Below, one piece after another: positions 26,686-62,492 of a DNA stretch of 64,000 nucleotides (the stretch's first letter is position 1; every line of letters begins with the position of its first letter). Below the pieces are notes generated by a model. That model searched no databases and was not told the origin of the DNA. It worked only from the letters and a program-made list of their open reading frames with translations. The translations under genes were made by a program, and so were the position numbers. Source of the DNA: Mytilus galloprovincialis (taxonomy: Eukaryota > Mollusca > Bivalvia > Mytilida > Mytilidae). Location: NCBI RefSeq assembly GCF_965363235.1, contig NC_134847.1, positions 56,142,439-56,206,438 of the forward strand, read 5' to 3'.

Positions 26686-27478
26686 CTAATTCAAATTTTT
26701 TTTATACAATTTACCATTATCATTCACTGATCCGTAAACGTGTCCATGTTCGTTAGAAGGTATCTTCTTTTTTTCGTTAACAGAATATGTCTTCACTATA
26801 CGACACATACTGGATACATAAAACGCTACTAATGCGATCACTACGAGGGCTGCTAAGCTTCCACCTGAAAAAAAAAACCAAAAACATATGACATACCAAA
26901 ATTGAAATAATCATAATAAAATCTTAAGATCAAGTATTTTGCACGTTTATTGTAAAACAAATGCATCATTTTGGAAGGTACTTTAAAAGTTTCCGATTCA
27001 AACCATTTGTTTTGTGATGTACTAGTATCACATGGGCAATCCACTTTACCTGCGTTATCTTGAGGTCTATTCACAAAAATAGTAAATTAACACCCTTTTG
27101 AAGGTTACACTGGTCTACTGGTTTATGCGCCTGACAATTAACGCTTGCCTCTGCCGTTAGCAGTCTTACTTGAATTTTGAGAATATCAGGGGCAATTAAA
27201 TATAGTTGATCAACCGCTCGGTCTCGTCCACAACTATTATATGGATAGAATCATTCAATTACTATTATATTATTTCCCCATCACCTCACTACAGTTGTGA
27301 AGGTTTTTTTTTTCATGACTTTCGTTTTGACCTCTAAACCATAAATTATTTGAAGCTTAAAATGTGTTATTTGTTTTTCTTTAAAACTTAATATATGTAA
27401 TGTTAACAATGTACTTACCAATAATTATCAGTAAGGTAACACTTATTTTATGCTCATGCGCTGGCATGGGATTCACGT
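26686..27478 (-). CDS. Gene A exons 7-8: membrane helix and tail
   Basis: Exon 7 (27419-27478) supplies HKISVTLLIII and exon 8 (26686-26864) continues GSLAALVVIALVAFYV, so the intron splits the membrane helix. The tail starts with a positive cluster (CRIVKTYS, EKKKIP) and ends YKKNLN. It has no PPxY motif, unlike genes C and D. Confidence 0.82.
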
Positions 27479-30400
27479 CTAAATTTTAAAATGAAAAATA
27501 AGCTATCATGAAATATAAGTCAGATGACAGTGTGTAGTTGTTTTGTGCCATTTAAAAAAAAAATAGTTGAAGAAAGACACTGATATAACTTACTTATATA
27601 ACATCAGACATTCCATAGAGCATACTTTAAGCAGGGGAAAATAAAAGAAGAAGTGCATATATTGAGCAGGAACAATGTTAAATTTTTTTTTTTTTTTGTA
27701 AAAGGAACAATTTCAATGTACTGCATTATTCTAGATTTCAATCAAATTATGATCTTTAATTGTGAATTCACCACTGGTTTTTGGTTGGATTCATTTTACT
27801 CATTTCCCTTCTTCAGGTTTCAGTAAAGCGTTTATTAAACTGCTTATTTTTCATGTCGTCTTTTCGCTTTTATTATGATCTGTGTGTTTTCGATTTACTG
27901 ATTTTAATTGTTATTTGGTGTTTTCTATTTTCTTTGTACTGCTTGTGAAGTTGCACTGAACAATATTTTAAATGTGACCTACCGAATTAGACTATTTACC
28001 GGGTTTGTAATAACATGAACCACACGACGGTGCCACATGTGGATCAGGATCTGCTTATCCTTCCGGAGCACCTGAAATCAACCCCAGTTTTTGGTGGGGC
28101 TCGTGTTGCTTAGTCTTTAGTTTTCTATGTTGTGTCATGTGTACTATTATTTGTTTGTTTGCCTTTTCAATTGTAGCCATGTCGTTGTCAGTTTGTTTTA
28201 GATTATGAGTTCGACTGTCCCTCTGACATCTTTCGCTTCTCTTTTTTATAGTGCATTTTTGACAAATTGAATTATCTTCTCTGTGAAAATTAGATGAAAT
28301 AAGTCACCTGGTGGATCTTGAACTGTTATTGTAAATCTGCATGTTGCGGTATTATTTGACCAGTCTTTGGCTTTATAGACCATGGTGTAAGTTCCGGGAA
28401 CCAGATTGGTTTTGTTCCTTTGTGGTAAGACTGGTCCATCAATTTCCCGAACTCCTACATTATCAGTAACGGTAGGCGCTGTCCATCCAAACAGGTCATT
28501 TGATCGTATAACTCTATCTTGTGGACAGTTATGGAAGACTGGCTCAAATCTATCTGCAAAGGTTTAATAAGTTTGATATTTGATATTTGGTATGGAGTGT
28601 AATTTATAGCTGCGTTCAATTTCGAATCTTTGACTTCTCACAAATACTCTTTTGAAAATCTTTTAAACCAAGACAAATAAAGGCTAACATTCCTTATGTG
28701 ATAATTTATGTTCTTTGCAATAATATTATTCTAATGTTATAAATTGTTCATGGGATAATAATGCATACATTGAAGATTAACTTGTGTCTCATCCCTTCAA
28801 CATATTTAAGCAAATAGAATATGTTTAACCTATGTTGTTGTCTGTATTTCTTTAAATAACAGTTTTTAACCCCTTCCGTTAAAATCCTCATATTGTGTTA
28901 AGGTACAAAATATCATTATCTTAAAAGATTATCAAACCTTTTAAGTAAAATTGACAATATTATGCATCTATAATCAGACTTACCAATAATATTTACCAGG
29001 AAAGTGGTTTCGTTGTAATTTCCAAATTTGTCGGGTACCGATTTAGCAATGACGGATACGGTAGAATTAGTACATAGACAGTGCTTAAATGTATTCTCCG
29101 ATACATAAACTTTCATCATGTTTCCTTCAAAGTCCAGAGCATATATAAAATTGGTATCAAGATATGCAGAATTTCTTGTGCTCAAAACATACACTGATAC
29201 CTTCTGTCCTTTCTTTGGTATGTTTTGTATAACTGGAGCTGCAATGAAGAGGCGTTATACAAACCATATACGAAATAAAATCAACAATGAATGTCATGTT
29301 TATACTTTCCTTCATGTAACAACGTCTATGTTTCTGAAAAAAAAGGATATTAAAAATATCATAAACTCTAAATATGACCATTATGTGGCCGATTCCCTCC
29401 AAATCCGGTATCTGGTAACTTTATTATCTTCGTTGCTTGATATATCATGGTAGGCGTACACATGTACGACAAAGTCCCCCTTATTTAATTATGCATACTT
29501 GTACATGTTTATTTGTTTAATAAATCGATGCATATTCGATTAAACTTTCTCTAGTTCGATTAATAAAGATTTTTTTCATATACGCTTTCATATAATAACT
29601 TGAAGCGAATTTGATTAGTTCAAAAAATGCAAGTTTGATATTTGTTGTAATATGTCTTTTTTAATAAAGATAGGAAACACTATGTAAAATACATGAAACG
29701 GATACATTTCATTGTGCTTGTGCTGTGTACATAACAATTAGCTGAAACAAATGTGTTTGTTTAAGCGATATGGTCAACTTACGTTTATAGTATTTTGGAA
29801 TATCTACAAAATAAATTGAAAAACATTAATTTTGTTAATTGATTGATTAATATTTTTTCTGAATTATAAGAACTGGATCCCTACATAAAAAAGAAGCATA
29901 CATACTGAGTTTGTTCTGAGTTGAAGATGTTGTTCATGGAACGATCTACTTATATGATTCCTTTAAAGACAGATCCCGAGTTACTGTACAGAAGATTTGT
30001 AATAAAATCAAAATGTTTTTTTTTTTTTTATGTTTTAACGAAATTAATTGCTTATGAGAAAGAAATAAAATCACAAAAATACTGAACTTCGAGGGAAATT
30101 TAATCGTAAAGTTCATTATCAAAAGGCAAAATCAAATGACAAAACACGACAACAGTATTGTAAGGGAAGCCATTGTATGTTTTCTACTGTTGTTATTCCA
30201 TAGCTGGGATTAATATAAGTTGCACAACTTGTTTCCCTATCCACTATAAATAAATATGTTTAAACTTAATTCCATGACTAAAGGTCCAATTCATTTTCTG
30301 AAAGCTATCCGCCTTTCAACAATTTAGAGAACTTGCAAAAGATACCCTTCGATTCCTGTCACACCCTATATAAAATATTCATGTCTCTTGACTGGTATAC

Positions 30401-33400
30401 TTAATTTATAATAAAGATTTTTGAAATTCTAATTAAACTTAAATAACCTGTCTGATTGTCCCAGTTACATGTAGATTTCTCACATTCCATAGTTGCTATA
30501 TGACCATCGGTATTACAGCTACACACAGTACATACATCATTGGTCGTTGTATTGGTTTCTCCTACAGTCCGATATACATTACGATACCAGCAGTGGTGTT
30601 TAGACAATTGTATACGTGTACAATAGTTGGAGCAGCATACTTCTCCTTCTTGGCAATAAGTATTGTCTACGCAATATTCACTTCCGTGTCTTTTGGTGCT
30701 GTTGATAAGTGATTCTGAGCATTGAAAATTCTTGATTGCTGTGAAATGATTCATTTATCTTAAAACATGACAAATTATTATGACAATGTATAAGACATAT
30801 TTAGTGTATATAAGTAATGACTCAATGTGAAATATATTTACGAAACTATTTTTCAACCTAGAATGACGTAAAATTTTAACTATTGATTACAAAACAATGC
30901 TGATCTAGAATAAGATCAATGCAGTAACTTCATATCAGCCTTTGTTAGGCAAACACACTAAAGTATTTGCATAAAAAAACCAGAGTAATGAACTGGCATC
31001 TGTCAGAAACTAACAAAACAAAACATAAATTTCTATAAGTGAAAAAATGCATTTGATCATTAGAAAACCTGCAACTGTTACATAAACATCACATCTGATT
31101 GTAAAATAATGTATCTATATCACAGACAGTGATTTATTTTAACACTATATAAACTGAACTTAAATATCATATATATATTTGACCTTCTCTGTCACGTATA
31201 TACTCACGTATGTCACATTTCCCCTTCATGCCTAACTCCCAACCTGGACAACACATACTCTGACATGCGTATGTTGTCACCTCACATTTTGTTTTACCAT
31301 TGTACCGATAGCATTTCTGTGTTCTACTGGTCTGGGTGCAGGAATTGGGATCATCGACTCCTGGACCACAGCTCATGCTAAAATTGCTGATAATAATCAA
31401 AGGATTGATTAATTGTGGTTCAGTGACAACTATTTCATTAGTAATTGAGGAAGATTACAAATAAACAATGATTGAATCTACCTAGTTGGTTGATAAGCTA
31501 GTTCTCGGCTGACAATTACACTTTGTTCAAAGAGAGTTTGAGTGATACTAGCGGATTCCAGTTTAGTGGGTTTACCGGTATAGAGTTGGAATTAAACTGC
31601 CAATTGAAGAGGGAAGTATCTTTAGAAAAGTTCGAAATTGTGCTTTGGTAAAATCAAACCTGCATCCCCTAAAAATCATTTTGGTTTAAAAGTTCTTTGA
31701 CTCTGAGAACGTAACATTCTCACATTTCAATACTGAAAAGTAGATGCGAATTTATGCACCAATACTTGAGTGATTCACATTTGTCTTTAGAAATGAGAGA
31801 AGATCACGTGGACATTTTTTTATATTGTTAATATAGAATTTGGGGTTGAACAAAAAGTCAAATTAATGAATGAAATGTAAGTAAGACGAGCATATTAAAC
31901 TTTTATTTGTTTTTGTGCAAATGAACTATGTTAACCTGTCATTATAAACATATCTTATTTGAATTTGTTTTCTTTTAGAAATCACTTAGATATTTCAATG
32001 TAATATTTTCTCTTTCGTATCGAACATTTACCTGCCAGTGGGTTTTCATTTGTTTCAACTTTCCACCATAGACCAAAAAGACGTAGAAATTACCACATAT
32101 ATGTCATCGTATGGCCTGCAGCAATGAGCAAAACCCATACCACATAGTAAGCTACAAAAGGCCTTACAATGACACATGTAAAACAATTCAAAGGAGAAAT
32201 CTGCATGGCCTAACTTATGAACAAATCAATTAACGAAAAACAAATACGATATACAGCAACAAACGACAACCACTGATTTGGGACAGGTACATACTGAATA
32301 AGACGGAATTTAACATGTGTGTTATAGCACCAGTGCCTTACCTAATTTGTCTATGTTATACTTATTCTGACATTGGACTTACACTGCTTTTAAACTGAGT
32401 TTTACTGTGAGTATTGACGTGTGTTTGTTTATTCAAAAGTGACTACAGGTATAGGGTGAGGGTGGATATCTTATTAAACATGTTTAACCCCGCCGCATTT
32501 TTTGGACCTGTATAGAAAATCTGACCTTTGGTTTGTCTTTTGTGTTTTAACAATTTTGGTTCATTTAAATATTTCAGAGGTTGATGTGGTGTCCATGTCC
32601 CTGAACGAGTATTCAATATTGTTTAAGAGCCCACTGAAGCCCGACTGCGGATGTCTGGTTTTCTCGCTGCGTTTTAACCCCATTGGTGGCCTCGGGCTGT
32701 TTCCTGCTCTTTGTTTGGGTTGATATCTCTTTGGCATATTCCCTATTTCCAGTCTCAATTATTCGTATTAATAAGTGATTCTTTTAGCAATTACTTGTGA
32801 TTTATATTTAATGCTAGATTGGATGTTCATATACTACTGCTGTTATCTAGCCATTAACACAAAACGCCCAATGGAAAGTTACATTTTCTTCAAACTGTTT
32901 GTCAAGATTTGCTGAACAGCTGAACAGATTAACATTTTTGTATTTTATAAAAACAAAACATGTTATTTAACAATAACTAGTCGGGACAGGTATAAGTTAG
33001 ATAAGAAAAAAGACAAAATATGTTTATTGACGTGACATTTTCACATTGAGTTTCTAATAGTATTTCAATGATGGCAAAAACAGTCAGCCAATCGCATTTC
33101 TATAATACAGGCAAAACAACCTTTTCATTCATGTCTGATATTCATATGATGAGGACATAATCTTTCAATCAGTTTAATTGAGGTCTGGAACTGGCATATC
33201 AGTTAACTGCTAGTAGTCTGTTGTTATTTATGTATTATTGCCATTTTGTTTATTTTCTGTTGTTACATCTTCTGACATACGGACTCGGACTTCTCTTCAT
33301 CTGAATTTTAATGTGCGAATTGTTATGTGTTTACCTTTCTACATTGGAAAGAGGTATAGGGCGAGGGTTGAGATCTCATAAACATATTTAACCCCGCCGC

Positions 33401-33867
33401 ATTTTTGCGCCTGTCCAAAGTCAGGAGCCTCTCACCTTTGTAAGTCTTGTATTATTTGTAATTTTAGTTTCTTTATTATAATTTGGAGTTTAGTATGATC
33501 TCCATTATCACTCAACTAGTATACATATATTTCTTTAAGGGCCAGATGAAAGACGCCTCCGGGCGCGGGAATTCCCTGCTGCATTGAAGACCTGTTGGTG
33601 ACCTTCTGCTGTTGTCTGTTCTATGGTCGGATTGTTGTCTCTTTGAAACATGCCCCATTTCCATTCTTAATTTTATTTTTATTTTAATTACGTTAATCTA
33701 TTTGATTTTATACTTGAATATCATTTAGTTTTATTAATAAACTTATAATCATTATTTAAAGCTTTCACATTATTGCATACATACCTGAGTGTCCCCATAC
33801 ATGTAATTTGTCCAACAACTGACAAAATGACAGCAGCATAAATACTATATTCACGTACGTTCTTCAT
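26686..33867 (-). CDS. Gene A: EMI-like/VWC-like/HYR single-pass membrane protein
   Basis: Eight exons: 33785-33867, 31208-31377, 30448-30738, 29783-29803, 28984-29238, 28308-28553, 27419-27478 and 26686-26864. All junctions are GT-AG and every phase joins, giving 434 residues. Residues 1-24 are a signal peptide (MKNVREYSIYAAVILSVVG). Residues 29-84 hold an EMI-like Cys-rich unit ending QSMCCPGWELGMKGKC. Residues 86-181 hold a second Cys-rich region (DNTYCQEGEVCCSNYC, later CTVCSCNTDG) resembling VWC. Residues 190-273 are beta-rich and unrecognised. Residues 274-356 match the HYR (hyalin repeat) pattern (HNCPQDRV, PTVTDNVG, YKAKDWSNNTATC). A membrane helix spans about 367-392 and a 42-residue basic tail follows. 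From exon 3 on, every internal intron is phase 1. HYR and EMI modules are known from adhesion and matrix proteins; the ligand and role here are unknown. Confidence 0.85.
27050..27066 (-). other. Possible 17-nt cassette exon in gene A intron 7
   Basis: Seventeen nucleotides, ACCTCAAGATAACGCAG, are bounded by an AG acceptor and a GTAAAG donor. The same 17 nt, with one change and both splice sites, occur at 41150-41166 in copy B. Inclusion would shift the frame and stop within a few codons of exon 8, removing half the membrane helix. Conservation may simply reflect the duplication. Confidence 0.3.
27973..28252 (+). repeat. Dispersed repeat family 3 in gene A intron 6
   Basis: Contains ATGTGACCTACCGAATTAGA, GGTGGGGCTCGTGTTGCTTA and GTTCGACTGTCCCTCTGACA. 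It is absent from the matching intron of copy B, so it probably inserted after the duplication. Confidence 0.82.
28308..28553 (-). CDS. Gene A exon 6: HYR (hyalin repeat) domain
   Basis: A single symmetrical phase-1 exon of 246 nt encodes one complete HYR module of about 82 residues. Key features in order are Cys-Pro-x-Asp near the start, Trp then PTVTDNVG, the GxYTMVYKAKDWSNN turn, and the second Cys in TCRFTITV. This is the usual HYR length and the usual one-exon organisation. Confidence 0.88.
28984..29238 (-). CDS. Gene A exon 5: beta-rich domain of unknown type
   Basis: 255 nt, phase 1 at both ends, donor GTAAGT. The 84 residues alternate hydrophobic and polar (KVSVYVLSTRNSAYLD, STVSVIAKSVPDKFG) and hold a single CxC pair (KHCLCTN), suggesting an Ig-like or other beta-sandwich fold. 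I do not recognise a family. Confidence 0.75.
29783..29803 (-). CDS. Gene A exon 4: 21-nt micro-exon
   Basis: The acceptor TTTTGTAG and donor GTAAGT frame 21 nt that add Asp-Ile-Pro-Lys-Tyr-Tyr-Lys in phase 1. The counterpart in copy B (45244-45264) keeps both splice sites, the length and the phase. It is too short to be found by open-frame search. Confidence 0.75.
30195..30262 (+). mobile_element. SINE 3' tail, 5'-truncated copy
   Basis: GGGATTAATATAAGTTGCAC followed by CTTGTTTCCCTATCCACTAT matches the end of the SINEs at 263-542 and 25990-26335. Only the tail is present, inside intron 4 of gene A. Confidence 0.75.
30448..30738 (-). CDS. Gene A exon 3: second Cys-rich (VWC-like) domain
   Basis: 291 nt, phase 1 at both ends. 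Cysteines fall in CSESL, EYCVDNTYC, GEVCCSNYC, HHCWYR, VCTVCSC and ECEKSTC. The CxxCxC followed by a later CxxxxC resembles the second half of a von Willebrand C domain. The paralogous exon in copy B (45567-45857) is open over the same length, though it has lost two cysteines (NNGTS, HHYWYR). Confidence 0.78.
31208..31377 (-). CDS. Gene A exon 2: EMI-like domain
   Basis: The acceptor is TTTTAG and the donor a perfect GTGAGT. The exon encodes 56 whole codons with seven cysteines beginning MSCGPGVDDPNSC and ending MCCPGWELGMKGKC. The CCPGW signature near the end is the hallmark of EMI domains. The spacing of the earlier cysteines is shorter than in classical EMI domains, so I call it EMI-like. 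Confidence 0.8.
32090..32315 (-). repeat. Dispersed repeat family 1, minus-strand copy in gene A intron 1
   Basis: The plus strand reads CAATGAGCAAAACCCATACC, then ATACAGCAACAAACGACAAC and TGATTTGGGACAGGTACATA. These complement the family 1 words TTGCTCATTG and CTGTCCCAAGTCA. Confidence 0.75.
32350..32770 (+). repeat. Dispersed repeat family 2 in gene A intron 1
   Basis: Contains GGTATAGGGTGAGGGTGGAT, CATGTTTAACCCCGCCGCAT and GCCCACTGAAGCCCGACTGC, and ends CCCTATTTCCAGTCTCAATT. The open frames over it are artefacts. Confidence 0.8.
33120..33690 (+). repeat. Dispersed repeat family 2, longer copy
   Basis: Begins near CTGATATTCATATGATGAGG, runs through CAGTTTAATTGAGGTCTGGA, GCTAGTAGTCTGTTGTTATT and GGTATAGGGCGAGGGTTGAG, and ends CCCCATTTCCATTCTTAATT. 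It pairs in inverted orientation with 35620-36235. Confidence 0.88.
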
Positions 33868-40806: not shown

Positions 40807-43800
40807 TCAGAATTTATTAGTATCTTTTACTGATCCGTAAATGTGAACATTTTGATTAGAGGATATCTCCTTTTTCTTGTTTATAGAATATATCTTAACT
40901 ACATGAAACGTTACAAATGCGATCACTAGCAGAGCTACTAAGCTTCCACCTGAAATAAATTGTAAAATTATGACGTACAAAAATTTTAATAATCATAATA
41001 ACATTTAAAATCAAGAATCTGGCATGTTAACTATTAAACCGTTGGTGCCGATGCATTACTTTGGAAGTATTTAAATGTTTCCTATTCAAACCAATTTTTT
41101 AAGCTATTGTACATTGATGAACTAGTATCACACTGGAAATCCAATTTACCTGCGTTATCTTGAAGTCTATTTACAAAAAAAAGTAAAATAGTAAAATTAA
41201 CACCCTTTTTGGGGTTATACTGGTCTACTGGCTTGTGCGTTTGACTACTACTGCTAGCTGCTGCCGTTAGTGCTGCTGCAGTTTCTAGCAATAAATAATA
41301 AATGCAGTGCATTTAAGCCGATAGTATAACCCTCTTCAAAGTTTAATCGAACTTACGACCGTTATTAGACTAGCAGTCTTACTTGAATTTTGAGAATATC
41401 GGTGCAACTAAGTAGTTAATCAACCGTTAGGTCTCGTCTCCAGCTAATATATATGGCTAGAATCATCCAATTACTATTCTTTGACCATTAACTCACTACA
41501 GTCGTTAAGGTTTTTGAATGACTTTCATATTAATCATAAATTATTCAAAATTTAAAGAGTGTTATTATTATTTCTTCTGAACTTATATGTGTAATGATAA
41601 CTATGTACTTACCAATTTTTAACAGTAACAGTGACGGATCCAGAGGGGGGCGTAGAGGTACGCCCCCCTTTGCTTGGTCCTTTTTCTTTGTAACGAAAAA
41701 TGATTTATAGGACTAGACTTCGTGAACTTTGCCATTTCTCGTATATTTAATTTTTATGCGACAATTCTTTACTTGATATAAAGATATTTTTCGCTGGTAT
41801 TTACTGATTATGTCAAAGTCATGTGATTCGCTATGGTGGAGTGCGTCAAAAAAACGTCACTCAGTCATTTTGACATTCAAATTACAGTAACGCATTGCTT
41901 AGGCTGAGAATGAAAACCATGATACCTTCAAAGCGACACAGGATTGAGTAAGAACGTAGTGACTTCTATTTCACAACTCAACCAAACAGAAAGTCATACT
42001 ATATCAAACTCTCAAGAAAAAAAAATCCACAGCAATATAATTTACTTACGAAAACATGTTCAACCCCAATCGCCCCAGACTATTTTAAAATAACATGATA
42101 GCTGAATAATGATCCCCAATCAGTATAAGCTCTAGATAGATTTAAAGTCTAAGGTACGAACTATTTCATTTGAGGAGGCAGTTTAATGTATTTGTGAGAA
42201 AAAAAATCTGACTCTGATTTTTGCATTAAATAAAAATTCTGGCCGTATCTTGATTGAAAACAATAATCTTGTCCACTTTTTGCTATTAGAAACGAAAATT
42301 TCCAACAGAATTATTTAGCATTTATTTAAATGAATATGATGAATAAAAAACGGGCGTATTTTTTTTTTTAGGTCGGGGTTTGCATGTCTGACCAGAATGA
42401 CAAATTCCACAATAATTATATCAGTACATAGCTTTGGATCTATACTATTATTTTATGATAGACAATCAATAGGGAGATTACAGCATAAAAATGTCAAACC
42501 CTTACACTTTACAGCAACTATAGAATATACATGCCCCACGCCAGGAACCGTTTAAAATGTGCATTTTACACTTGTTTTATGATTTTTAGCCCCAAAAAGG
42601 TCTAAATGTTTTGTAGCCTCGCTCTGCTCGGCGATCTTTAAAATTTCGCCCCCTTTTCAAATTACTGGATTCGCCACTGAGTAAAGTAGTCACATCTGAA
42701 TTAAAAAAAAAGAGCTATTATAATTATGCAATATAATCAGATGTCCGTTTGTAATTGTTTGATGCAATAAAAAAAGACAGTTTGAAGAAAAACAATGATA
42801 TCACCTATTTATACACAACATCAGATAGTCCACTGAAATATGGAATAAGTGTATGAATTTTAAAGAGACAATCATGTTTCGTTTCTTCTACAACTTTCTG
42901 TCGGAAAAGGGAACCATTGCAATGTACAGTAATCCTGTAGAATTTCATGAAAACTTTATATGTGTATTCACATGGGTTTTGGTTGGATTCGTTTTACTCA
43001 TTCTTACGGGTTCAGTGAAGCGTGTTGTGGACTAATTTTTCATTTCGTCTTTTGATTTTGTTATGGGCTATCTGTATTCGACTTATTGGTTTTGGTTGTT
43101 GTTTGTGATTTGATATTTTCTTTTTCTTTGTACTGCTTGTGAAGTTGCACTCAATATTTTGTGTGTATCAAAATGTTATCCGTGCATTTTTGAAAAATCG
43201 AATTCTCTTATCTTCAAAAAAAATAAAATAAATCACCTGATGGATCTTTAACTATTATTGTAAATTGACACGTTGTGGTATTATTGGACCAGTCTATGGC
43301 TTTATAGATCACGGTGTAAGTCCCAGGAACAACATTGGTTTTGTTTTTTTGTGGTAAGACTGGTCCATCAATGTCCTGAACTCCTACATTATCAGTAACG
43401 GTAGGCGCTGTCCATTCAAACAGATCACTTGATTGTATAACTCTATCGTGTGGACATTCATGGAAAACTGGCTCAAATCTATCTGCAAAGGTTTGATAAT
43501 TTAATATTGAACGATATTCTATTAAATCAATGAACGAAACTTGATATAGGAATTATCCTTAATATTTGTCTCCGTGGCTTTTCCCTAGCATTAAAAAGTG
43601 TATGTTCATGGCCAGTAACCCTTATATCTATAAGTATGTTATGAAATGACTACCTTTGCAATACCTTTCAAGTAAAACACTATGATATTCGTGTACTTCT
43701 TGAATGATTTTCTTACAGCGTAGGATTTACTGTGTTGCATCATATCAACATAATATTTGGTACGAAGTCTAGTTTATAGCTGTGTTGAAGTAATTTTGAA

Positions 43801-46800
43801 TCTTTCACTTTTCTAAAAATACGCGTTAACAGTCATTTAAATAAATACATTAAAAAGGTTTCTTTCCTCATGTAAAAATTGATGTTCTTTGCAAGAATAG
43901 TATGCAAACTCTTTCAGTGAATAAATTGGGTAGGATTTTTCTTCTGTTTGTTCTAATTGTACTAAGACACTATATACATATGCATTCATATTGTACCATT
44001 ATATTCGGTTAATCTTTTTGAATAGATAAATGGATAAACGAGGGGGGTAAAGACTAGCGCTCTGTCAAAAATTGTATTTTCATTGCTGATTTTAAGTTAA
44101 GTTTGCATACTTTATCTTATCTACAGTAAGCAAAGCCAATTGAGTTTTCAATGAATAAGCGTTGCTGATTTTTAAGATCTATATATAATAATCCCATAAT
44201 TAATTCAGATTTAATATGACATTCTTTCAAACACCAGCATGTGCTTATGAAAGAAGGTTGTCAACGTACCATATTGTCCGCGTTGTTTTAATTCTCCCTC
44301 TTTGTGATATGTTGGGAACTTTTGTATAAATATATGTATATTTTAACAGGCCATATTTTGTCCTTTCATTTTTGAGTGGTTGGAATTATTGTCTTATTGA
44401 CCTATCTATTTTAATATATTGACATTGTTCAATAAGCGCAACTTCTTTTATCGTTTGTCTAAATGTTGTTTAAATGAAAGTTTTGATTCCCCTTCCTTTG
44501 GAATTCTCTAAATGTTTTAAGGTATCAAATATTAGTAGCTTAAAAGATAGTTGTCTATCAAATCTGAAATCTTTAAAGTAAAATTGACAATATGGTGCTT
44601 CTATAATCAAACTTACCAATAATATAAACCTTGAAAGTGGTTTTGGCATAATTTCCAAATTTGTCGGGTTCTGACTTAACAATGACGGACTCAGTGGAAT
44701 AAGCACACAGACAATGTCTAAATGTAGTCTTCGATGCATCGACTTTCATTATGTTTCGTTCAAATTCCAGAGCATACATAGAACTAGTATCAAGATATGC
44801 AGAATTTTTAGTGCTCAAAACATACACTGATAGGTTCTGTCCTTCGTTTGGAGATTTCTCATAACTAGAGCTGCAATGAAAAAGATGGCGTTTAAAAATA
44901 CAAACCTTTTACATAAAACATCAACATTGAATGGTATGTTTATACTTTCCTTGAAATAAAATCAACAGTGCTTCTAAAAAGACACATTATTCTTAAATAT
45001 GAGTATTAATTGATGCATTTCCGATAATATATTATCTTGAATATAATTTCTTTCATGTACGTTTGAAATTGTGTTAAAGCGAATTCAAATAATCAAATAT
45101 ACCAAATGTTCATATGGGGTAAAAACTCTTTTTTAATTTAGCTGGGAAACATAAACAACGGCAAAAATATAGGTTCTGTATAAAATAGCCGTGTGTTGTG
45201 TTCATAAACGAATTTGTGTGTGTAAGCTTAATAACAGACTTACGCTTATAGTTTTCTGGAATATCTGCAAAATAAATCAAACGAACTTGTGTAAACTTGT
45301 TGCTATTACTATAGTATTTCATTTCTAGAACTGGATACCAACTTAAAAAATGTGGAATACATTTTTTGCACTGATGTTGTAGGGGTTTCAATCAATAAAA
45401 TTCTTTCCAAACGAATTGTTTAACTTTCTTGGTAGTACTAATATGAAGTATAATTGCTGAAAACAAATTATCTTTTGGTTGCTGTCTCATACTACAGCAT
45501 ATATTCATGTCTTTTGATAGGTATAATTTTGATATTTTGTAAAAATTCTAATTGAAATTAACTAACCTGTTTGATTATCCCAGTTACATGTAGATTTCTC
45601 ACATTCCATAGTTGCTATATGACCATCGGTATTACAGCTACACAATGTACATATGTCGTTGGTGGCTGTGTTGGTTTCACCAACAGTCTGGTATATGTAA
45701 CGATACCAGTAGTGGTGTTTAGACAATTGTATACTTGTACCATTGTTTGAGCAGCACACTTCTCCTTGTTTACAATAAGTATTGTCAACGCAGTATTCAC
45801 TTCCGTGCATTTTGGTGCTGTTGATTAGTGATTCTGAGCATTCAAAATTCGTGATTGCTGTGAAATAGTTTATTTTTCTTGAATATATATTTAGTATATT
45901 CAAGTAACGACACAATGTAAAATATATTTTACGAAACTGTTTTTCAATTTAGAATGAAGTAAATTATAACTAGAACTTATAAAAAATAATCAATCTAGAA
46001 TAAATTCAGTACAAAAACTTGATAAATATAGCCATATAAGAAAATGCGAACGCACAAAATCATTTGCAAAAAAATATACATAATAATGAGGAACTTGCCC
46101 TTTAAATAAACCAGTAAATCAAAACATAAATATACTATTATGGAAAATGCAGATGCTCATTGACAAGCCACAACTGTTACAGATACATCATATCTGATTG
46201 AAAACGCGAGTTTATTTAAACTACACAGTCATGCATGTATTTTAGCACCATATGAACTGATATATTTCTTATTCTAAATCCATGTCCTTGTCTGTTACGT
46301 ATCTACTCACGTTTGTCACATTTGGCCTAAATCCCAACCTGGACAACACATACTCTGACATGTGTATGTTATCACGTCACATTTGGTTTCATCATTGTAC
46401 CGATAGCATTTTTGTATTCTACTAATACGAAGAAATCTTTGACTCCTGGACCACAGGCCATGCTAGAACTGATGATAATAGTTAATAGGTTGATTAATTG
46501 TGGTTCAGTGACAATTATTTCACCAGTATGCGAGAACAATAACCTATAAACAATGATGGAATCTACCTAGTTGGTCGACCGGTATAGAGTTGGAATTAAA
46601 CTGGCAATTGAAAAAGGAAGTGTTTTAGGTAGGGATCGAAATTATTCTTTGCTAGAGTACACCTCCATATATACCAGTAGAGACCTTTGTGTTTTAAAAG
46701 TCATTGAACGTGACGTTCTGACATTACAATGCCAAAAGATAGATCTATGCGTATTTATGCATCAAACCTGAGGATTTTACATTGGATTTACAGTAGTAAG

Positions 46801-47756
46801 AATTTAGTGTCAAAAGAATAGTCAAATGATTGAATGAAACGTTTTAAATGTAAATTATATCAGCAAATTGAACGTTGTTTTTATATTTTAAAATGAGAAG
46901 TAGCTCTAAAGCTGTCATTATAAACATCTTTTGTTCATTTTTGTTGTTCATTTATGAATCATTTATGATACTCAATTAATTATGTTTTCGCTTTCCTATC
47001 AGACATATATCGATATACAAAACATATTTAAGAACCAACAATAAACAAAGTGGGTGTTTACTTACTTCTCTGTAATGATCTATATTTACTGCTGGATTGA
47101 AAGATAAATTTCTGCCCACGGTTGTTATCATGCAATTAACCAAAAATATGTCCGCTGGAAAGTGACATTTTTTTTCAAATTGTTTGTCAAGATTGGTAGA
47201 ACAGATTTACGTTTTGTATTTTGATATAGTTGTGACGTTTAACAAAAGTGTCGGCGTAAATGATTCCCCTTACTATTCAACAATATTGTCAGTATGTTTT
47301 AAAGATATGAAATTGATATAAGGACATTGCATCAAATGTAGTACATATCTATTTACTCGTCGACTTATTTATAGACATCTGAGGATAATAATATTGACCT
47401 CATAATTGAGGTTTGACCGATAACAAGCAAACCACGCATTGATAATAGTAAAATGATTTAAATTTCGGGGCAATAATAAACTTGATAAGAAAAAGACAAA
47501 AGACAATAGATATTTCATTGACGTTAAATTACATTTGTTGTTTTTGTTATGTTGCATAGATATAAGGAAACATAGTCAGTCTATTGCAAAACCTTTCTGT
47601 TAAGGCAATTTATTTGATCTGGTGTTATGGTGTTATTTTAAACTGTGACAAATTATCTAAAGCTTTCAAATTATTTAATACATACCTTCATGCAATATGT
47701 CCAAAAACTGACAAAAAAACAGCAACATAAACACTATATTCACATACGTTCTTCAT
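40807..47756 (-). pseudogene. Gene B: broken tandem paralog of gene A
   Basis: Counterparts of all eight exons are present in order: 47686-47756, 46311-46462, 45567-45857, 45244-45264, 44617-44870, 43237-43482, remains of exon 7 at about 41613-41628 and after 42680, and 40807-40949. Exon 1 has lost 12 nt and runs into TGA just before its donor. Exon 2 has lost 10 nt then 8 nt, so its middle is out of frame and reaches a stop. Exon 5 has lost one nucleotide near 44845-44860 and stops soon after. Exon 7, which starts the membrane helix, is split by a 1051-bp transposon and part of it is deleted. Exons 3, 4, 6 (HYR) and 8 remain open. Splice sites are mostly kept. The full-length product cannot be made from this reading; short partial products are not excluded. 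Confidence 0.87.
41629..42679. mobile_element. Non-autonomous DNA transposon in gene B exon 7
   Basis: The left end CAGTGACGGATCCAG and the right end (minus strand) CAGTGGCGAATCCAG form terminal inverted repeats. A 5-bp duplication AGTAA lies at 41624-41628 and 42680-42684. Just inside the left end is a perfect 10-bp hairpin, GGGGGGCGTA / TACGCCCCCC with loop GAGG, at 41645-41668. No transposase frame is found in 1051 bp. The ends resemble hAT-type elements, but the 5-bp duplication is shorter than the 8 bp typical of that group, so the class is uncertain. Confidence 0.85.
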
Positions 47757-51270: not shown

Positions 51271-51277
51271 ACAAGCT

Positions 51278-51546
51278 TCATATTTGTGTGTCTTCTTTTT
51301 CTTTATATAATGGTGGTATATCACGTGGACTATATTCTGGAAGATTTGAATTAACGACAACTTCATACGGTGGTGGTTCGTTGTTGTAAACTGTAAACAC
51401 ACTTGCGTTTGCTTGTGTTCTTTGGATAGATCTTTGATTGACATGTGGCGATCTGCTATGTGTTAGGTATTGTCCTGCTTTACCGAGTTTAATCAAAGCC
51501 ACCAACACTATCAAAATAACCAACATCACTGCGACTACAACTAGAA
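51278..51546 (-). CDS. Gene C last exon: helix and PPxY tail
   Basis: The acceptor TTTTTTAAG opens on the membrane helix; the tail then runs KAGQYLTHSRSPHVNQ and ASVFTVYNNEPPPYEVV to the stop at 51278. The part after VFTVYNNEP aligns with gene D (IFTVYNNEPLPYDIV), and both contain a following LPEY. Confidence 0.82.
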
Positions 51547-54500
51547 CTTAAAAAAAAATCATTAAAGGTTGTAAGGTCGTTGACATATGTCAGAAATAAA
51601 ATTTAATTAGTCTATGATCATTCCTGCTATTTTTTTTTCTATTTTCATACGCCTAATTGTACCAAAGATGAAATAGCCGAATCTTAATTCATTCACACTA
51701 CAAGTTACCCAAAATACACAAGTGTTGATGATTTTCAACATTATATTTTTGATAATGCCAAGTGTTCTACGAATTTTCCTTTCAATTTTTAACGTTATTT
51801 TATCAGCAATCAAAACCGGGCATCAGAGTTACTGTGCAAATACCGACTCCAGGGAAGGTGCTAGTTACGGCAAAAGCAGTTTTCTGACGTTCAAATTATT
51901 AAGACATAAATCAAGGTAAGAAAATAAACACTGTTGGAATCGCGCGACCTTAACCAAAGACACAGTACGGTGTGTGAAGACGGGGTTAACGTAATAGGAT
52001 GAGCGTATACTGTTATGCATGCATCATCCGCCATTAAAATGTCTCAATCCGAAATAGGACCAAATAGGTAAAATAACAAAATTTTAAGTTCAAAGACCAA
52101 GAAAACATATTGCTTGATAGTAGAGACAAATATATTCGTATTTGTCAATCAACACCGTAAAACCGTGATACTCCTAAAACTTATTAAGTGTCTATTTGAG
52201 TCGTTCTTCTCTACAGAAATACGACAGTTGTTATCCATTCGATGTGTTTGCGCTTTCGACATATTCAAATGGCAAATAGTAATCAAAGGTACCAGGATTA
52301 TAATTCAGTACGTCAGACGCGCGTTTCGTCATAAGCTCAAACAATCAAACGAAGGAATAACAAATGTGGTATTTGTTTTAAAATAACTTGGTACATACAT
52401 TTTCCTATGAAGAAAACGGTGGATATAGCCTAGCCCAACCTCTAACTAGTATGACACTTGCATTAATTTCCATTATAATTGACAACGATGTGTGAACAAT
52501 ACAAAGAGACATAATAGATAAAACTGTCAAAAATAGGAGTAGGGCAATCAAAACATTGTGTTATAATCTTAATCACTATAAAATCAATCAAACATGTCAA
52601 CGTAGAAACACAAAAAGGCATACAGACAGTGAAGACCAACCAAAACGAAAGACAAATGTTCGGAGACTATCGACATTTTTTTTATTTATTCGATATATGA
52701 TGTTGTCTTTTTATAGAATATTTTATTGAACATCTATGATAGCTTCATAAAAAATTAATAAAAATATCATAATCATGACATTAATAGACATAACACATTT
52801 CAATCAGTATCAGTTTTAAAACTGAGCATGGAATACTAAAGAACGATAAATTTGTTTATTATTTTTCATTGAAAGTAACTTAAAAACATTGTGATCTAAC
52901 ATTTGTTTATTGCCAACTTACTAACAATCGTCGGTGCCGTAACTTTGATGCTATGTTTTACATCATCCGTCTTGTCATCCGTCGTGACATGCTGACCTAC
53001 AATTGATGTTACATTAAACATAGTATATGAATGGTTATGTTTTACACTGTGAATAAATCATCGTCAATTAACTGTGTTTTTAATTACTAGTAACAAGTTT
53101 GAATGAATATTTCTCGGAATCGGTTAATTATATTAACAAACTAATCGCTATTTATTTTGATAGTGAACTTTATGCAATATTCAAATATTTCCCTATTGCT
53201 TCTAAAACAGTGGCGACAGATCAAAAAGGAAAATTCAAACTCATAAGCCGAGAACAAGCTGACAATGCAAATGCAAAACACGAAAAAAAAACCCGAACGC
53301 TAAAAAAAAAAAAAACAGTACGCAAACCACAACATTGGATAACTAGAGACAGCGCTACACGAAATAGCCAAAAAATCGGGGTTGGCTTTAGTGCTCAGAA
53401 ATGATAGGCAGATGTGTATGTCTAATTGTGTATTTCACATTCGAAGAAAAGAGCACGGGTTTGTTGTTACAACAATTGGAACATATCCATCGTCATTGGG
53501 AAGCAAATATTCCATAATGGTCAACCAACTCGTGATGGGCTCCGTAAATATTTTCGAAGGGATTATTTCAAATTCATCACTTGCTAAAAAATCTTTCTTG
53601 TAAGCATCGAATGCCGGAATGTTGCTATATAGATACAGAAAGTTCACAATTGGGAAGCTGACATCATCGCCTTTGTTGTAAAGTGTATTCTTCATTTGAT
53701 CCTCATTATCATTTTTTGGAGATTTTACTGATTCTGTTGAATCCTTTTTATAGTTACCAAACTTTGTCTCGTGAGAGGACATCATCCTTATAGCGGAACG
53801 TGTGGCGAAAGAAAATAGTTACTTCTTTTCAATGTTTCATAAATAGCTCTTGTGTTAAGTCAATCTCATATATATAAGGGACAAATCGTCAAGAAGTGGC
53901 GATGCTGATTGTGTACTGAAAAACACGTCCTCCAGTCCTTATATAGATGTAGTCAATTAAGAAATCAAGCATCTTGATTATGTCAGTTATAAAATATTGT
54001 TTGTTTGAATCAGAGTGATTATACAAGATGTCCCTCCTTAAAACAAGATATTTGTTTCAATGTTTGTCATTCTATTAATGAAACTAACAGGAACAATTTT
54101 TGTACTTTAGTTTGGAATGGGGAATACTTGTGTAAAGTGGAGAAGGTCAATTTTTGGAAGATAATTTCGTTCACCTGTATTTTCGAAGGCCCATTTTAGC
54201 AAAAACTTACCGGGATGAATAATATTAACAATACTAAACCCACTAATTTATGCTAGCTTATCGGGGCCTTTTATAGCTCACTATGCGGTATGAGATTTGC
54301 TCATTGTTGAAGGCCGTACGGTGACCTATAGTTGTTAATGTCTGTGTCATTTTGGTCTTTTGTGGATAGTTGTCTCATTGGCAATCATACCACATCTTCT
54401 TTTTTATAGCTTAACATTTCTAAAAAATGTTTGCATTTTCATTTGGGAGATAAATGCTTTTGAAAAAAAACGAGTAAAGTAAAGTAAATATTATGGCTAC

Positions 54501-57500
54501 CGTTATGGATATACAGAATATTGACAAAACAGGAAAAAAACATAAATACTATTATTAAATGTCCAACAACCTATATCGAAATGATTTGATTTGCCATTTG
54601 ATAAGGGACATTCAAATTTGAAATTTACTTGGAGTTCAGTAAATTTGTTATTTGTTTTTCTCTACGATATACATTACATGCTAGAACGGACTTGTAACAT
54701 TATATTTTAGACTGTAAGTGCTGTATTTTGATGGACATGATTTATTTTTATTTAGTGGTGTCTTTATTTTATTAAAATTTGCTTAATTTATTTTATTTCT
54801 GTCGATAAAGTGGGCATTGAATATTTCGTTTTTTGCTAAAATGGGATGGAAAACTTTTATAATTGGTATTACTTTTTCGCTAAAACGTCCGAATATTTTA
54901 ACGCAAATAGTCCTACCCATGCGCCAACATGTCTCCCGCTTGTCAATATAACATAGCTGTTTACTGGGTGGTTTAAAACCAACATTATAACTTTGATTGT
55001 TTAAGAATGCTTGTCCACAAGAATACAACAAAAAGAAAGCTTTTATGGCCAGGACGCAATATTTTAACCAGGATTTTTAAAATTGCTCTTACTCCTTTAT
55101 AATTTTGTTTTCCGATAATTTTATCGTAAATAAATACATCAAACATTTAAAGTTTTTCTTCAAATTGCATTATTTGATTGTAAGCTTAATTTTACTTCCT
55201 GTCTTACTTAGCAAAGTATCACAACGTCCTACCAACAAGTAGATTACTTGTCAAAAAATATATATACTCCGGAGTCAAAAGACAGTAACATGAATATAGT
55301 ATTTTCCGGAACATCTGGGATTTTCCAAATTTGCTCAATTTTTAGTTAAACATGTAATGTTTTTTTTTTTGTCTATCGATGTTTTCATTGTGTTGTTGGT
55401 TGCTCTGCGAGTTACAAATTCTCCTGGATTGTCCCTCTGGTATCGTCTTCTTCTTTTAAAAATAGTAATTAAATAAAAACCAGGTTATTTGACTTGCCTG
55501 CTTTAATTGAGCATTTGCCGTTTATCATCGTCCATTTATCACAACATTTTGGTTTTATACATCTTGTACCAATTTTAACACAAATCTTTCTTGTCACATC
55601 ACAAAATGGCCATTTGTTTTGTGCGCTACAAAATATATATATATATAAAACATTTTCAAGCTAAGGCAACTATTTAATATTAAGAGTTGTCTGCAATTTG
55701 ACAAAGATTTTCATTTAACCATTACAGATAAGCATTTAAAAGAGGGACGAAAGATACCAGAGGGACAGTCAAACTCATAACTGATGCAAAAATTGTATGT
55801 AAGTAAAGATTGTAATATTTAATCTATGTAACAATGAACAATTATAACGTATCGAAAATTATTTTGTTTACACAGAAGTACACTTGTTAAGTAACGTAAC
55901 TTTTCATCTTTCAATATGTCTTATAAACTTGAGCCTTGGTCGTCAAATCAAAGAACAGCTATCGATGGATGTGTCTTTGAAGAGAAGTGAAAGGGTGTGT
56001 CGTCTCTTGGAACTACAGAATATAATCACTTTAGTCAATTATCATTCTGATGTATATTTTTTATATTTGTATTTATGTAGATTTTGAGTTTCCTTTCAGA
56101 TTTCTTTGTTGGTTATTGATACTTTGATAAAATTAAAAGTTTAAGCAAAACAAAAACAAAAAAATACAAATCAAAGGATATATGCAATTAACTGTAAAGT
56201 AATATAATAACATCGGTGTTTTTATTCAACATTTTATGAAGATATAATTTGTTGTATGTTCTACGTACGTGCAATTTATGACTTTGCTTGGATACATAAT
56301 ACACTGTGTTACATCCTCTAACTCTCCACAAAGATGTGGGTCGTTTCCAGTAGGTGAACAACTTATGGCTGTTGTCCTGAATAATAAATACGATTAAAAA
56401 TGGCTAGAATGCAAGCGAATTGTCATTTGTAGATTTTTTTTATTTTAAGAACTGTTCTTTGTCATTTAAAAATAAAATGGCATAATATATTTATTATATA
56501 TCTGAAGTTTTTGTTTAGTAGACAACGATTCTGTAAAATCCACAAACATTTGTTTCAAACACCGGATCAAAGTCTGAAATAAATACTGATGATAATATAA
56601 ACGGTACCAATTTTTTAGCACACGATGCGCATTGCGACAATCATTGTCTCTTTAGTGATGTTCGAGGCAAAAATATTTGAAAATCCAAAGCTTAATAAAC
56701 AGATGAAGAGCTATAAACCAAAAAAGGCAAAAAATGTATACCTAAAGCCAGGCAGGGAATAAAGTTTTGCATGATCATGAGGGCGAAACATTCCTAAATT
56801 CTTAATGATATCCAACATTTTGTAACAGCAAATTTAAATAACAAAAAATCCGTATCTTCATTTTTGTACAATTTTGTATGAAATTTACAATGTTGACCAA
56901 CACGAAGGAAGATACATATGTGCATCGCTTAATTTCCAACATACTATAAGGTTTATGTAAACGTACCGTTACATTCATATCATTTTTAAAATGTACAAAA
57001 AATTTCAATACCTATAAGCATTTTCATTTGTTAAAAGTGTTGACTACTGGGCTGGTGATACCCTCGGGGACGAAACGTCCACCAACAGTGGCATCGACCC
57101 AGTGGTGTAAATAGTTATCAAAGGTCTACATAAGACTCATCAGTGACGCTCATATTAAAATATTTATAAAGCCAAACAAGTACAAAGTTGAAGAGCATTG
57201 AGGATCCAAAATGCCAAAAAGTTGTGCCAAATACGGCTAAGGTAATCTATGCCTGGGATAAGAAAATCCTTAGTTTTTCGAAAAATGTTTTGTAAACAGG
57301 AAATTCATAAAAATGACCACATTATTGATATTCATGTCAACAACAAAGTGTTGACTACTGGGCTGGTGATACCGTCGGGGACGAAACGTCCACCAGCAGT
57401 GGCATCTACCCAGTGGTATTTAAACCAGGTATTGAATATGTAATATAAAAACAGAAAATGTGAGATCGCCTATGAGATAACTATCCACCACATACCAAAT

Positions 57501-58081
57501 GACGTAAACTTTAACACCTATAGATCACCGAACGGCCTTTCACAATGAGCAAAACCCATACTGCCAAATAAAATATGATAAAGCTTTAAAGTCCGAAAAT
57601 GACAAAGGAAAAACAAATCTAACATGAACAGAGACGACCTGAATAATTCACAAACCTATAAACAACGAACAAAATTAATATACAGCAATCAAAATCAACC
57701 GTTTCAATCTCTCAGGACTAATGCGTTCCGATTAATACTTTGAAAACGTACACCAAAACGTTGTGATTGGTCAAGGCTTCCTAAACAAAAGAAATTAAAT
57801 CAACAACACAACGTTATTTTCATTTTGGTGTACGAACAATGATATTATCCATAGCCCTTTAGGGTCTGAAAAGGCAAAAGTCTATATAAATAAACAAATG
57901 TTTTCAATTAATGAGAAAGTATTTACAATTATTATTTTTGTCTCAATTTTTCATTTGTTGAATATTAATATTGAATTTGTTACCAACTTAATTTCTTCAA
58001 AATATTTACTTACCCAACAAAAAGAAATGTACAGCAGAAAAAGAAACAAATAAAAACAAACGCAATTTTCTCTGTCATCAT
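51278..58081 (-). CDS. Gene C: EMI-like single-pass protein with PPxY tail
   Basis: Five exons: 58014-58081, 56269-56376, 55498-55625, 52922-52996 and 51278-51546. Phases 2, 2, 1, 1 all join, giving 215 residues. Intron 3 uses a GC donor (GCAAGT); the others are GT-AG. Residues 1-22 are a signal peptide (MMTEKIAFVFICFFFCC). Residues 24-101 form an EMI-like Cys-rich domain split over two exons (CSPTGNDPHLC, later PKCCDKWTMINGKC), aligning with CCPGWELGMKGKC of gene A. A short stalk (residues 103-126) leads to a helix at about 127-145 (LVVVAVMLVILIVLVALI). The tail has NNEPPPYE, LPEY and PPLY, including a PPxY motif of the kind bound by WW domains. It lacks HYR and VWC-like parts. Same strand and exon phases as gene A, so a shortened relative. 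Confidence 0.8.
52265..52690 (-). repeat. Pieces of families 5 and 4 in gene C intron 4
   Basis: AAAGGTACCAGGATTATAAT and GTCAGACGCGCGTTTCGTC (family 5) are followed by TTCCATTATAATTGACAACG and GACATAATAGATAAAACTGT, which I recall as part of the family 4 repeat. Confidence 0.6.
53435..53785 (-). CDS. Possible small intronless gene nested in gene C intron 3
   Basis: A 116-codon frame starts at ATG ATG (MMSSHETKFGNYKKDS) and ends NPCSFLRM. An in-frame TAA lies 36 bp upstream, so the ATG is the true frame start, and TATATAT occurs near 53868-53876 upstream on the same strand. The composition is protein-like, not low complexity (SDEFEIIPSKIFTEPITSW). No signal peptide, helix or known motif is seen. 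It could be a real gene, a retrocopy fragment or chance. Confidence 0.3.
   Translation of the reverse strand: MMSSHETKFGNYKKDSTESVKSPKNDNEDQMKNTLYNKGDDVSFPIVNFLYLYSNIPAFDAYKKDFLASDEFEIIPSKIFTEPITSWLTIMEYLLPNDDGYVPIVVTTNPCSFLRM
54260..54412 (+). repeat. Family 1 tail in gene C intron 3
   Basis: GGGGCCTTTTATAGCTCACT, TTGTTGAAGGCCGTACGGTG and TTGTCTCATTGGCAATCATA, followed by a T run. Confidence 0.85.
57035..57425 (+). repeat. Dispersed repeat family 5 with direct-repeat ends, gene C intron 1
   Basis: A segment of about 70 bp with GTGTTGACTACTGGGCTGGT, CGGGGACGAAACGTCCACCA and CAGTGGCATC occurs at 57037-57106 and again at 57348-57417. The 240 bp between them matches the copy at 10930-11205. 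This fits a tandem unit of about 310 bp cut after little more than one period. Confidence 0.8.
57440..57715 (-). repeat. Diverged family 1 copy, minus strand
   Basis: GATAACTATCCACCACATACC, CACAATGAGCAAAACCCATA and TATACAGCAATCAAAATCAA complement family 1 words. More diverged than the other copies. Confidence 0.65.
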
Positions 58082-58744: not shown

Positions 58745-58990
58745 TTGTATTTATTGTGTCTGTTTAGTTAACGCATCAATGTAAATATAACGGAATTTGA
58801 TGAGACTGTAAAACCAGGTTTAATCCACCATTTTCTACATTTGAAAATGCCTGTACCAAATCAGGAATATCACAGTTCTTGTCCATTCGTTTTTGATGCG
58901 TTTTGTTATTTGATTTTGCCATGTGATTATGGACTTTCCGAATTGATTTTCCTCTAAGTTCAGTATTTTTGTGATTTTACTTTTTCCAAA
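58745..58990 (+). repeat. Dispersed repeat family 4
   Basis: CTGTTTAGTTAACGCATCAA, AACCAGGTTTAATCCACCAT and TTTTCCTCTAAGTTCAGTAT match the copies at 24184 and 48640. Confidence 0.8.
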
Positions 58991-58994
58991 TTGA

Positions 58995-60165: not shown

Positions 60166-60169
60166 ATTT

Positions 60170-60558: not shown

Positions 60559-60924
60559 TCAGCATAGATGGTGTTAAACAAGTTTAACGTGAAAATTTCG
60601 AAGATTTCAAAAACCTATGTTTAGCAATGTCAATAATAATGGTCACGTGTCAATATTGTGCAGACGAAGCTTCCACTACAATGTCCCTTTCCTCTATGAA
60701 AAAAAGGTAAATTGGATTGAAATTGGGGCTTTGAGATAGGGTTTGTCTATGATTTGTTTTATAAAGGGAACTAACTCTATATATAGTCGCTTTGTGGACG
60801 ACTAGGCAATAGGTTTTAACGACAATGAAAGATTTCAATTAATTTGGTTTCATTTAATTCAATTTATAACAAGTGGCTGTCACACCGACAGCAAACAGGA
60901 TTTATTAACATTTAATTGTGTCCG

Positions 60925-61560
60925 GGCAATATCACAAGAACCATAACTGATGAACGGTGAAAGTGAAAATCGTCAATATCAAATTTGACCTCGAAATTGT
61001 CATCAGTACCAACATATCAAAATTTGAAAATCTTAGGTTGAATGGTTCATGAGTAAATGCAACATAATGAATGGAAACGCCATTTTTCGATCTTTCAAGA
61101 ACCATAACTCCTGAACGATAAAAGTCAAAATCGACATTCTTGAACTTCACCTCCATTTTGTCATCAGTTACAACATATTAAAATTTGAAAAGATTTGGTT
61201 GAACAGTTTATGAGTAAATGCACGGACACGACTGGAAACGCCATTTTTCAATGTTTCAAGAACTATAACTACTGAACGGTAAAAGTCAAAATCGTCATTA
61301 TTAAACTTGACCTCCATTTTGTCATCAGTAACAACATATTAAAATTTGGGAAGCTTTGGTTGAACAGTTCATGCGTAAATGCACGGACACGACAGGAAAT
61401 GCCATTTTTCAATCTTTCAAGAACCATAACACCTGAACGGTAAAAGTCAAAATCGTCAATATTGAACTTGACCTTCATTTTGTTGTCAGTAACAACATAT
61501 TAAAATTTTAAAAGCTATGGTTAAATAGTTCATGAGTAAATGCACGGACAACATTTGGTT
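60925..61560 (+). repeat. Four tandem units of about 161 bp
   Basis: Units start near 60937, 61098, 61259 and 61420, each with AAGAACCATAAC, CTGAACGG, AAAAGTCAAAATCG and CATTTTGTCATCAGT. The last unit runs into a C-rich stretch (61560-61605). Open frames with MEVKFKNVDFDFYRSG-like sequence on the minus strand simply reflect the period. Confidence 0.88.
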
Positions 61561-62186
61561 GCCGCCCAACCGCCTGACCGTGCCCCGTCCGCCCGCCCGA
61601 CGTACATCCCCAAATCAGTAACCGACATTTTTGTCACAAAAATCCGGTTAATAAATGATGATATTTATATATTGATTCTAAATAGTACGTACATGTATTT
61701 AAGGTTGTACTGAACACGTGTAAAATAAACCTTAAGAATTCATATATTTAGGAGCAAAATACAGTTTGGGAATACAAATTATGCAAAGTAAAAAGACTCC
61801 TGCATTTAACAAAACATGTATGGATGAGGTATAAGTTATTTTGATATTTGCATTTTTGATAAACAAACGAATCATATAAATTGTTTTTTGTAAATCATGA
61901 TTGTTCGTGGAAATTCACGATTTCTTGGATCTGTTTAGCGGTAACAGTATTTAAACTTGTACAATTCATTTTGTATGCAGATGTGTCTGTCATAATTTAG
62001 GTCACAAAGCCAAATTTCCTCTGCCTGTTGCATCAGAAATCAATGTTTTAATTAAGAAAAAGTGATTGTTGCAATTGCATGACTTCAGAAGGTTATTCGG
62101 GGCTGGATTTAGGATCATTATGAGCAGGTTCTGGTAAATGGCCCAAAGTGTCTATTGCTATTAAGTCGTTGTTATCATTACTTTGT

Positions 62187-62492
62187 TCAGAAATTGCAAC
62201 TGGTAGTTGACTGTCCCCTCGATTGATCATTGTCCTCATAGCTAGGTGGATCCCGTGGATTATCGTGTAGAGTGTACTCTGGTAGTTTCGAATTTTCTAC
62301 AATATCATATGGAAGTGGTTCATTGTTATACACAGTAAATATTAAAGAATAGTAATTTTTGCATATTGGTCGCACTTCCTCGAATGTTCCTTTGCAATCG
62401 ACCGCGTAAATTTCGGCGGGCTTTACATACTCGAAACATGGCGAATGCCATTATTTCGAGGACAATGAATAATAAACCAACAACAGTGGCAC
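62187..62492 (-). pseudogene. Gene D last exon: membrane helix and PPxY tail, frame broken
   Basis: The acceptor GCTTACAG at 62493 opens in phase 1 on a helix (ATVVGLLFIVLEIMAFAMF) followed by a basic stop-transfer segment (CKARRNLRGRLQRNIR). That frame stops near 62330. The tail that aligns with gene C (VYNNEPLPYDIVENSKLPEY, then PPSYEDN) lies in the +1 frame and ends at 62187. The two frames overlap for about 100 bp, so the shift cannot be placed exactly. It may be a disabling indel, a sequence error or an intron I did not recognise. Upstream exons were not found before the window end. Confidence 0.55.

Follow-up and report, generated by a model that had tools for sequence, protein, structure and literature searches.

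What do the neighbouring minus-strand genes in this part of a Mytilus galloprovincialis contig encode, and what might their products do? The window, by which we mean the whole 64,000-nucleotide stretch analysed (NC_134847.1 56,142,439-56,206,438; contig C10 of the 1.38-Gb assembly used in genome searches), had been described in a first-pass annotation as carrying four related modular membrane-protein genes, A, B, C and D, all on the minus strand, and all four do lie on that strand. We also examined flanks of 60 kb to the left and 90 kb to the right; coordinates above 64000 extend the window numbering into the flank. Judged by sequence, the region holds several members of a tandemly arranged family of type I membrane proteins in which the extracellular modules vary, and of the four window copies B is dead and D probably broken. 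We recognised no literature on this family among the papers listed for it in open-licence PubMed Central.

A is an intact-looking eight-exon gene for a type I membrane protein of 437 amino acids, extending from 33867 to 26686 on the minus strand (Table 1). AG is present at seven of seven acceptors and GT at seven of seven donors, with intron phases of 2, 1, 1, 1, 1, 1 and 1. A single 437-codon frame running through eight exons with matching phases, together with homologous exons recurring in that order at other sites on the contig, favours the reading as a cluster over chance. The initial description gave A both VWC-like and HYR exons. The HYR domain stands and is the sole Pfam domain above cut-off in A; exon 3 has no Pfam match of its own and resembles the WAP+VWC exon of a relative outside the window, gene F (BLASTP E 0.001). 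A sequence search of the PDB with A gave no matches. Splice-site reading upheld the short first exon with a signal-like peptide and a phase-2 donor in A, B and C. The phase-1 intron into the membrane-helix exon, also described as common to the genes, is present in A and C, and D has the matching acceptor phase, its upstream exons lying outside the window.

Table 1. Exons and other features of genes A to D, in window coordinates.
Feature	Coordinates	Strand	Basis
A exon 1, signal peptide, phase-2 donor	33785..33867	-	splice sites and frame
A exon 2, eight-Cys unit ending CCPGW ("EMI-like" in the first-pass annotation)	31208..31386	-	splice sites and frame, profile comparison
A exon 3, WAP/VWC-like	30448..30738	-	splice sites and frame, BLASTP to F
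A exon 4, 21-base mini-exon	29783..29803	-	counterpart at matching place in B
A exon 5 (X), diverged HYR-like domain	28984..29238	-	profile comparison, Pfam
A exon 6, HYR domain	28308..28553	-	Pfam HYR E 1.3e-5
A exon 7, stalk and start of membrane helix	27419..27478	-	splice sites and frame
A exon 8, remaining helix and 38-residue tail without PY motifs	26686..26864	-	splice sites and frame, motif count
B, whole pseudogene	40807..47756	-	comparison with A
B exons 1-4	47756-47686, 46468-46311, 45857-45567, 45264-45244	-	comparison with A
B exons 5-8	44870-44617, 43482-43237, 42695-41613 (interrupted), 40949-40807	-	comparison with A
1,051-base insertion with nearly matching inverted ends, inside B exon 7	41629..42679		sequence comparison
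C exon 1, signal peptide, phase-2 donor	58014..58081	-	splice sites and frame
C exon 2, six-Cys unit, GC donor	55498..55625	-	splice sites and frame, profile comparison
C exon 3, stalk	52922..52996	-	frame and splice sites alone
C exon 4, coding for the membrane helix and a tail bearing PPPY, LPEY, PPLY	51278..51546	-	splice sites and frame, motif count
D helix exon with tail, PY portion not in frame with helix	62187..62492	-	comparison with E

B had been counted as a member gene, and in this assembly it is a pseudogene, a decayed duplicate of A. It retains all eight exons of A, and matching A/B blocks are 74-88% identical. Exon 1 has lost 12 bases and carries an in-frame TGA at its end, exons 2 and 5 are frameshifted, and exon 7 is split by the insertion. 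Over 323 codons (exons 1, 3, part of 5, 6 and 8, leaving out exons 2, 4, 7 and the start of 5; counts by a custom script), A and B differ with dS 0.27 and dN 0.126, a ratio of 0.47. For exon 3 alone the ratio is 0.19, so B was probably under constraint before it decayed; exon 1 alone (22 codons) gives 2.3, with one synonymous change. The WAP/VWC exons of A and B are 84% identical, and two Cys residues of A are G and Y in B, as if one disulfide pair had vanished together. A repeat with inverted ends lies at about 40000-40610. Used as a 601-base query, with 40 of 1,006 candidates scored so that counts are lower bounds, it found at least 88 genome matches, among them at least 40 other near-full-length copies at 95-98% identity, and it looks recently spread.

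C is an intact-looking four-exon gene whose 179 residues comprise a signal peptide, a six-Cys unit, a stalk, and a helix with its tail, the signal peptide and helix being judged by sequence and hydropathy. Two further minus-strand open frames lie in its introns. That at 54783-55076 has 97 codons, a hydrophobic start and several Cys, and no relative in the region searched; that at 53435-53818 has 127 codons and may be a repeat, since part of it resembles 21900-22056 and 72413-72557. Tandem arrays occupy 1069-3002, 3693-4754 and 5148-5640 (units of about 178, 134 and 36 bases), and 12543-13984 and 60935-61550 (about 54 and 161 bases).

The PPxY tails ascribed to C and D held for C and not for D. 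D has a sister, E, outside the window, and their helix exons (from 62492 in D and 73420 in E) are 98% identical over 45 residues, but in D one extra base throws the PY portion into another frame, and the first PY motif there has changed to PLPY. We accordingly rejected D as an intact gene in the window, its tail being frameshifted relative to E. The extra base lies in a run of A and could reflect an error in the assembly. Two Cys exons, at 67482 and 78791, were assigned by position to D and E, respectively; a simple signal-peptide scan yielded nothing for D and, for E, a single candidate that lacks corroboration. Between D and F, at 1267-2198 of locus L010 (minus strand), are open frames that resemble reverse transcriptase fragments.

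The suggestion that further copies be sought in the flanking contig proved fruitful, with E, F and G found upstream and H, I and J in a second cluster on the same contig, 37 Mb away (C10:18.40-18.69 Mb). Predicted genes F (signal peptide at 106763, tail near 85.0 kb) and G (138942 to 111.3 kb) begin with a signal-like peptide exon with a phase-2 donor, two Cys exons, two EGF exons and a WAP+VWC exon, and end with X, HYR and the helix, the tail carrying NPVY as well as three PY motifs. G has in addition further VWC-type exons and two antistasin-type exons between WAP+VWC and X. WAP scores above the Pfam cut-off in F and G (37.7 and 40.1 vs 20.8 bits), as does HYR (E 2.2e-12 and 1.1e-11); in neither gene does the VWC part of the WAP exon reach the cut-off, VWC is above it in three of the five further G exons scanned, and Antistasin matches at 1.2e-9 the one scanned of two near-identical exons of G. 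H, I and J, pieced together short of full gene models, have a Cys unit, X, HYR and a three-PY tail; the stretch examined for J did not include the helix itself. Because H has HYR modules like those of A and a tail like those of C and E, it bridges A/B and C-E.

In genome searches with A as query there were at least 27 matches from 30 candidates, the second cluster included, and with the X-HYR-helix-tail part of F at least 20 from 29, of which all 11 listed with E <1e-4 fall in the two clusters. The Cys exons of G gave at least seven matches among 16 candidates, of which six fall in the first cluster and a weak seventh on contig C2, and all eight matches listed for C (from 15 candidates) lie in the two clusters. 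Weaker HYR-type matches occur outside both, on contigs C1, C2, C6 and C9.

An EMI-like unit had been proposed as common to A, B and C. In profile comparisons, from which B was omitted because its reading frame is broken, the Cys unit of A matched those of F, G, H, I and J at 91.7% (E 7.6e-7), and those of C, D and E matched the same five at 97% (E 1.1e-10). A direct comparison of A with C, D and E, which bears on whether the exons of A and C might be unrelated, gave 71% (E 3.8e-5), so the units are related. The label EMI fared less well. The unit ends in CC-x-G-W...C, which we liken to the EMI signature, and yet, with E values up to 10 admitted, Pfam EMI (PF07546) matched neither A, C or D nor the F and G units when joined, the F/G exon border being guessed. 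A genome search with PF07546, read exon by exon and without a known mussel EMI protein as positive control, gave two matches, neither of them in the clusters. We rejected the identification of the Cys unit with Pfam EMI, PF07546 matching no member tested. Exon X matched HYR at 75% (E 2.4e-5) in profile comparison, and Pfam HYR matches it in two of seven members (best E 0.0038); from these scores it looks like a diverged HYR domain. PDB sequence searches returned four matches for the joined Cys units of F and G (best E 0.47) and one for X (E 0.45). In a tree of X+HYR from seven genes, F/G split from A, B, H, I and J (100/100) and A joined with B (100/99), the other branching not being resolved.

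Tandem duplication, part of the original interpretation, is borne out for A/B (dS 0.27) and for D/E, whose DNA is 82% identical over 794 bases. The region upstream of C (58982-60875) matches that upstream of D (69922-72114) in four blocks at 71-77%, an alignment consistent with duplication of a whole unit, part of the stretch being found elsewhere too. Symmetrical-exon shuffling, proposed at the same time, survives as gain or loss of phase 1-1 exons, with four architectures (F/G, A/B, H-J and C-E) made from related exons. To call the family expanding was an overstatement: B is dead, D looks broken, and the matches listed for the C query fall in the two clusters only.

The cytoplasmic tail is the part in which constraint seems to be located. 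We tested the tails of A, C, E, F, G, H, I and J for PY motifs, leaving out B and D, and seven of the eight have three; that of A has none. Among 10,000 shuffled versions of each of the seven, three PY motifs were reached once for J and never for the other six. Over the 15 pairs of C, D, E, H, I and J, mean identity is 59.6% in the PY core vs 33.3% in the Cys unit, and it is the difference between these values that points to the tail; helix plus stalk are 33.2% identical over six pairs of C, E, H and I.

WW domains, to which PY motifs bind, occur in various proteins. In this family, the motifs would bind those of Nedd4-family HECT ligases, and the protein itself, or a partner held by its ectodomain, would then be ubiquitinated and pass to endosomes. 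The proposal that PY-tailed members recruit Nedd4-family ligases to control membrane traffic, with A outside that control, is one to which we give even weight for and against. C and E would be small membrane adaptors that bring a Nedd4-type ligase to a partner, and F, G and H-J larger surface receptors with the same output, roles we infer by analogy with CYYR1-type adaptors. A, which is without a PY tail and would thus escape the ligase, may act at the surface or as a decoy. B is no longer functional, and D probably is not either. Mytilus coruscus is listed, in the part of a survey drawn on here, with five Nedd4-subfamily genes, NEDD4, SMURF2, WWP1, HECW1 and HECW2 (PMC11353290). Passages of one study describe CYYR1 as having a signal peptide, a Cys-rich region, a transmembrane segment and three PPxY motifs through which it binds WWP1, carrying the ligase to late endosomes for its own degradation, and cite WBP1L as an adaptor in CXCR4 ubiquitination (PMC11399591). 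Sections of another state that Comm and PRRG4 carry such PY motifs and act on Robo trafficking, and that Nedd4 binding by Comm at the midline was reported to be unnecessary (PMC5578492). In favour of the proposal we count the number and conservation of the PY motifs, the CYYR1-like layout of C, the Nedd4-subfamily genes of M. coruscus and the link that H provides; against it stand the finding on Comm, the Pfam scores of PY-adaptor profiles, which stay below their cut-offs in C and E, the binding of PY motifs to other WW proteins, and the tail of A.

The modules of the longer genes suggest a different emphasis, in which these are surface binders like CRIM1, VWC and antistasin modules holding BMP-like ligands or matrix, HYR serving adhesion, and the tail setting turnover only. 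G, with its WAP, several VWC-type and two antistasin-type exons ahead of HYR and the transmembrane segment, fits this, and CRIM1 is, in the portion of the source used, a single-pass type I membrane protein (PMC3299674). Yet C and E retain the tail without any of these modules, and the Cys unit is less conserved than the tail, which makes such a role rather unlikely in our view. The lesions in B, the frameshift and altered first PY motif of D, the tail of A without a PY motif and the GC donor of C could instead mean that the cluster is decaying and has little present function, the window copies being relics of F/G/H-type genes. Against this, the reading frames of A and C run uninterrupted from signal peptide to stop codon and their splice phases agree, and we regard it as improbable.

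A role in immunity, which had been raised for the cluster, would make these recognition receptors diversified through duplication and exon exchange. Tandem copies with varying ectodomains are what one would see, and other immune families are, in the partial accounts available to us, expanded in bivalves; its support ends there. We consider it very improbable, given that the cluster proteins have no lectin, TIR, C1q, ITAM or ITIM feature that we could see, that the copies are few, and that the overall A/B dN/dS of 0.47 gives no sign of positive selection. Recruitment of Nedd4-family ligases through the PY tail is the reading we carry forward.

A bolder version of it, which we hold to be doubtful, is that one exon kit has yielded a matched set: long (F, G) and short (H-J) receptors, adaptors poor in ectodomain (C, E) that retain the putative ligase-recruiting tail, and the tail-less A, acting in opposition on shared ligands or partners. 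Were this true, the set would parallel paired activating and inhibitory receptors, with ubiquitin as its basis. Small PY-tailed adaptors and large modular receptors would share a single mollusc genomic kit, with H linking them, and these proteins would allow one to ask whether Nedd4-type control evolves by loss of ectodomain exons while the tail is kept, or the reverse.

How, then, does the family compare with known systems? F and G, like the EMI-domain proteins MEGF/Draper and EMILIN, have EGF repeats after the Cys unit, but A, C and the joined F/G units differ from them in having no Pfam EMI match. The small members resemble Commissureless and PRRG4 as short membrane proteins with PY motifs, although Pfam Comm stays below its cut-off (25.5 bits in E and 14.9 in C, vs 27), C has an N-terminal signal-like peptide, and C-E have the Cys unit. 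C is like CYYR1, WBP1 and VOPP1, of the STMC6 or Shisa-like group, in its signal peptide, Cys-rich unit, single helix and three PY motifs, and it alone appears to have that complete layout. The six Cys of those adaptors are given, in the part of the source consulted, in the order C*C*CC*CC (PMC5578492). C, D and E differ in having C*C*C*CC*C, and in having cluster relatives with HYR, EGF and WAP/VWC modules. Pfam WBP-1 in C (18.1 vs 28.1 bits) and CYYR1 in E (19.8 vs 31 bits) are also below cut-off, and on Cys order and these scores we rejected C, D and E as STMC6 members. CRIM1 is built from VWC, antistasin and N-terminal IGFBP-like modules. The first exons of G that were scanned have no Pfam match, and G differs from CRIM1 in its Cys unit, EGF, WAP, HYR and three-PY tail; G alone in the family combines, like CRIM1, a helix exon, read from sequence, with both VWC and antistasin modules.
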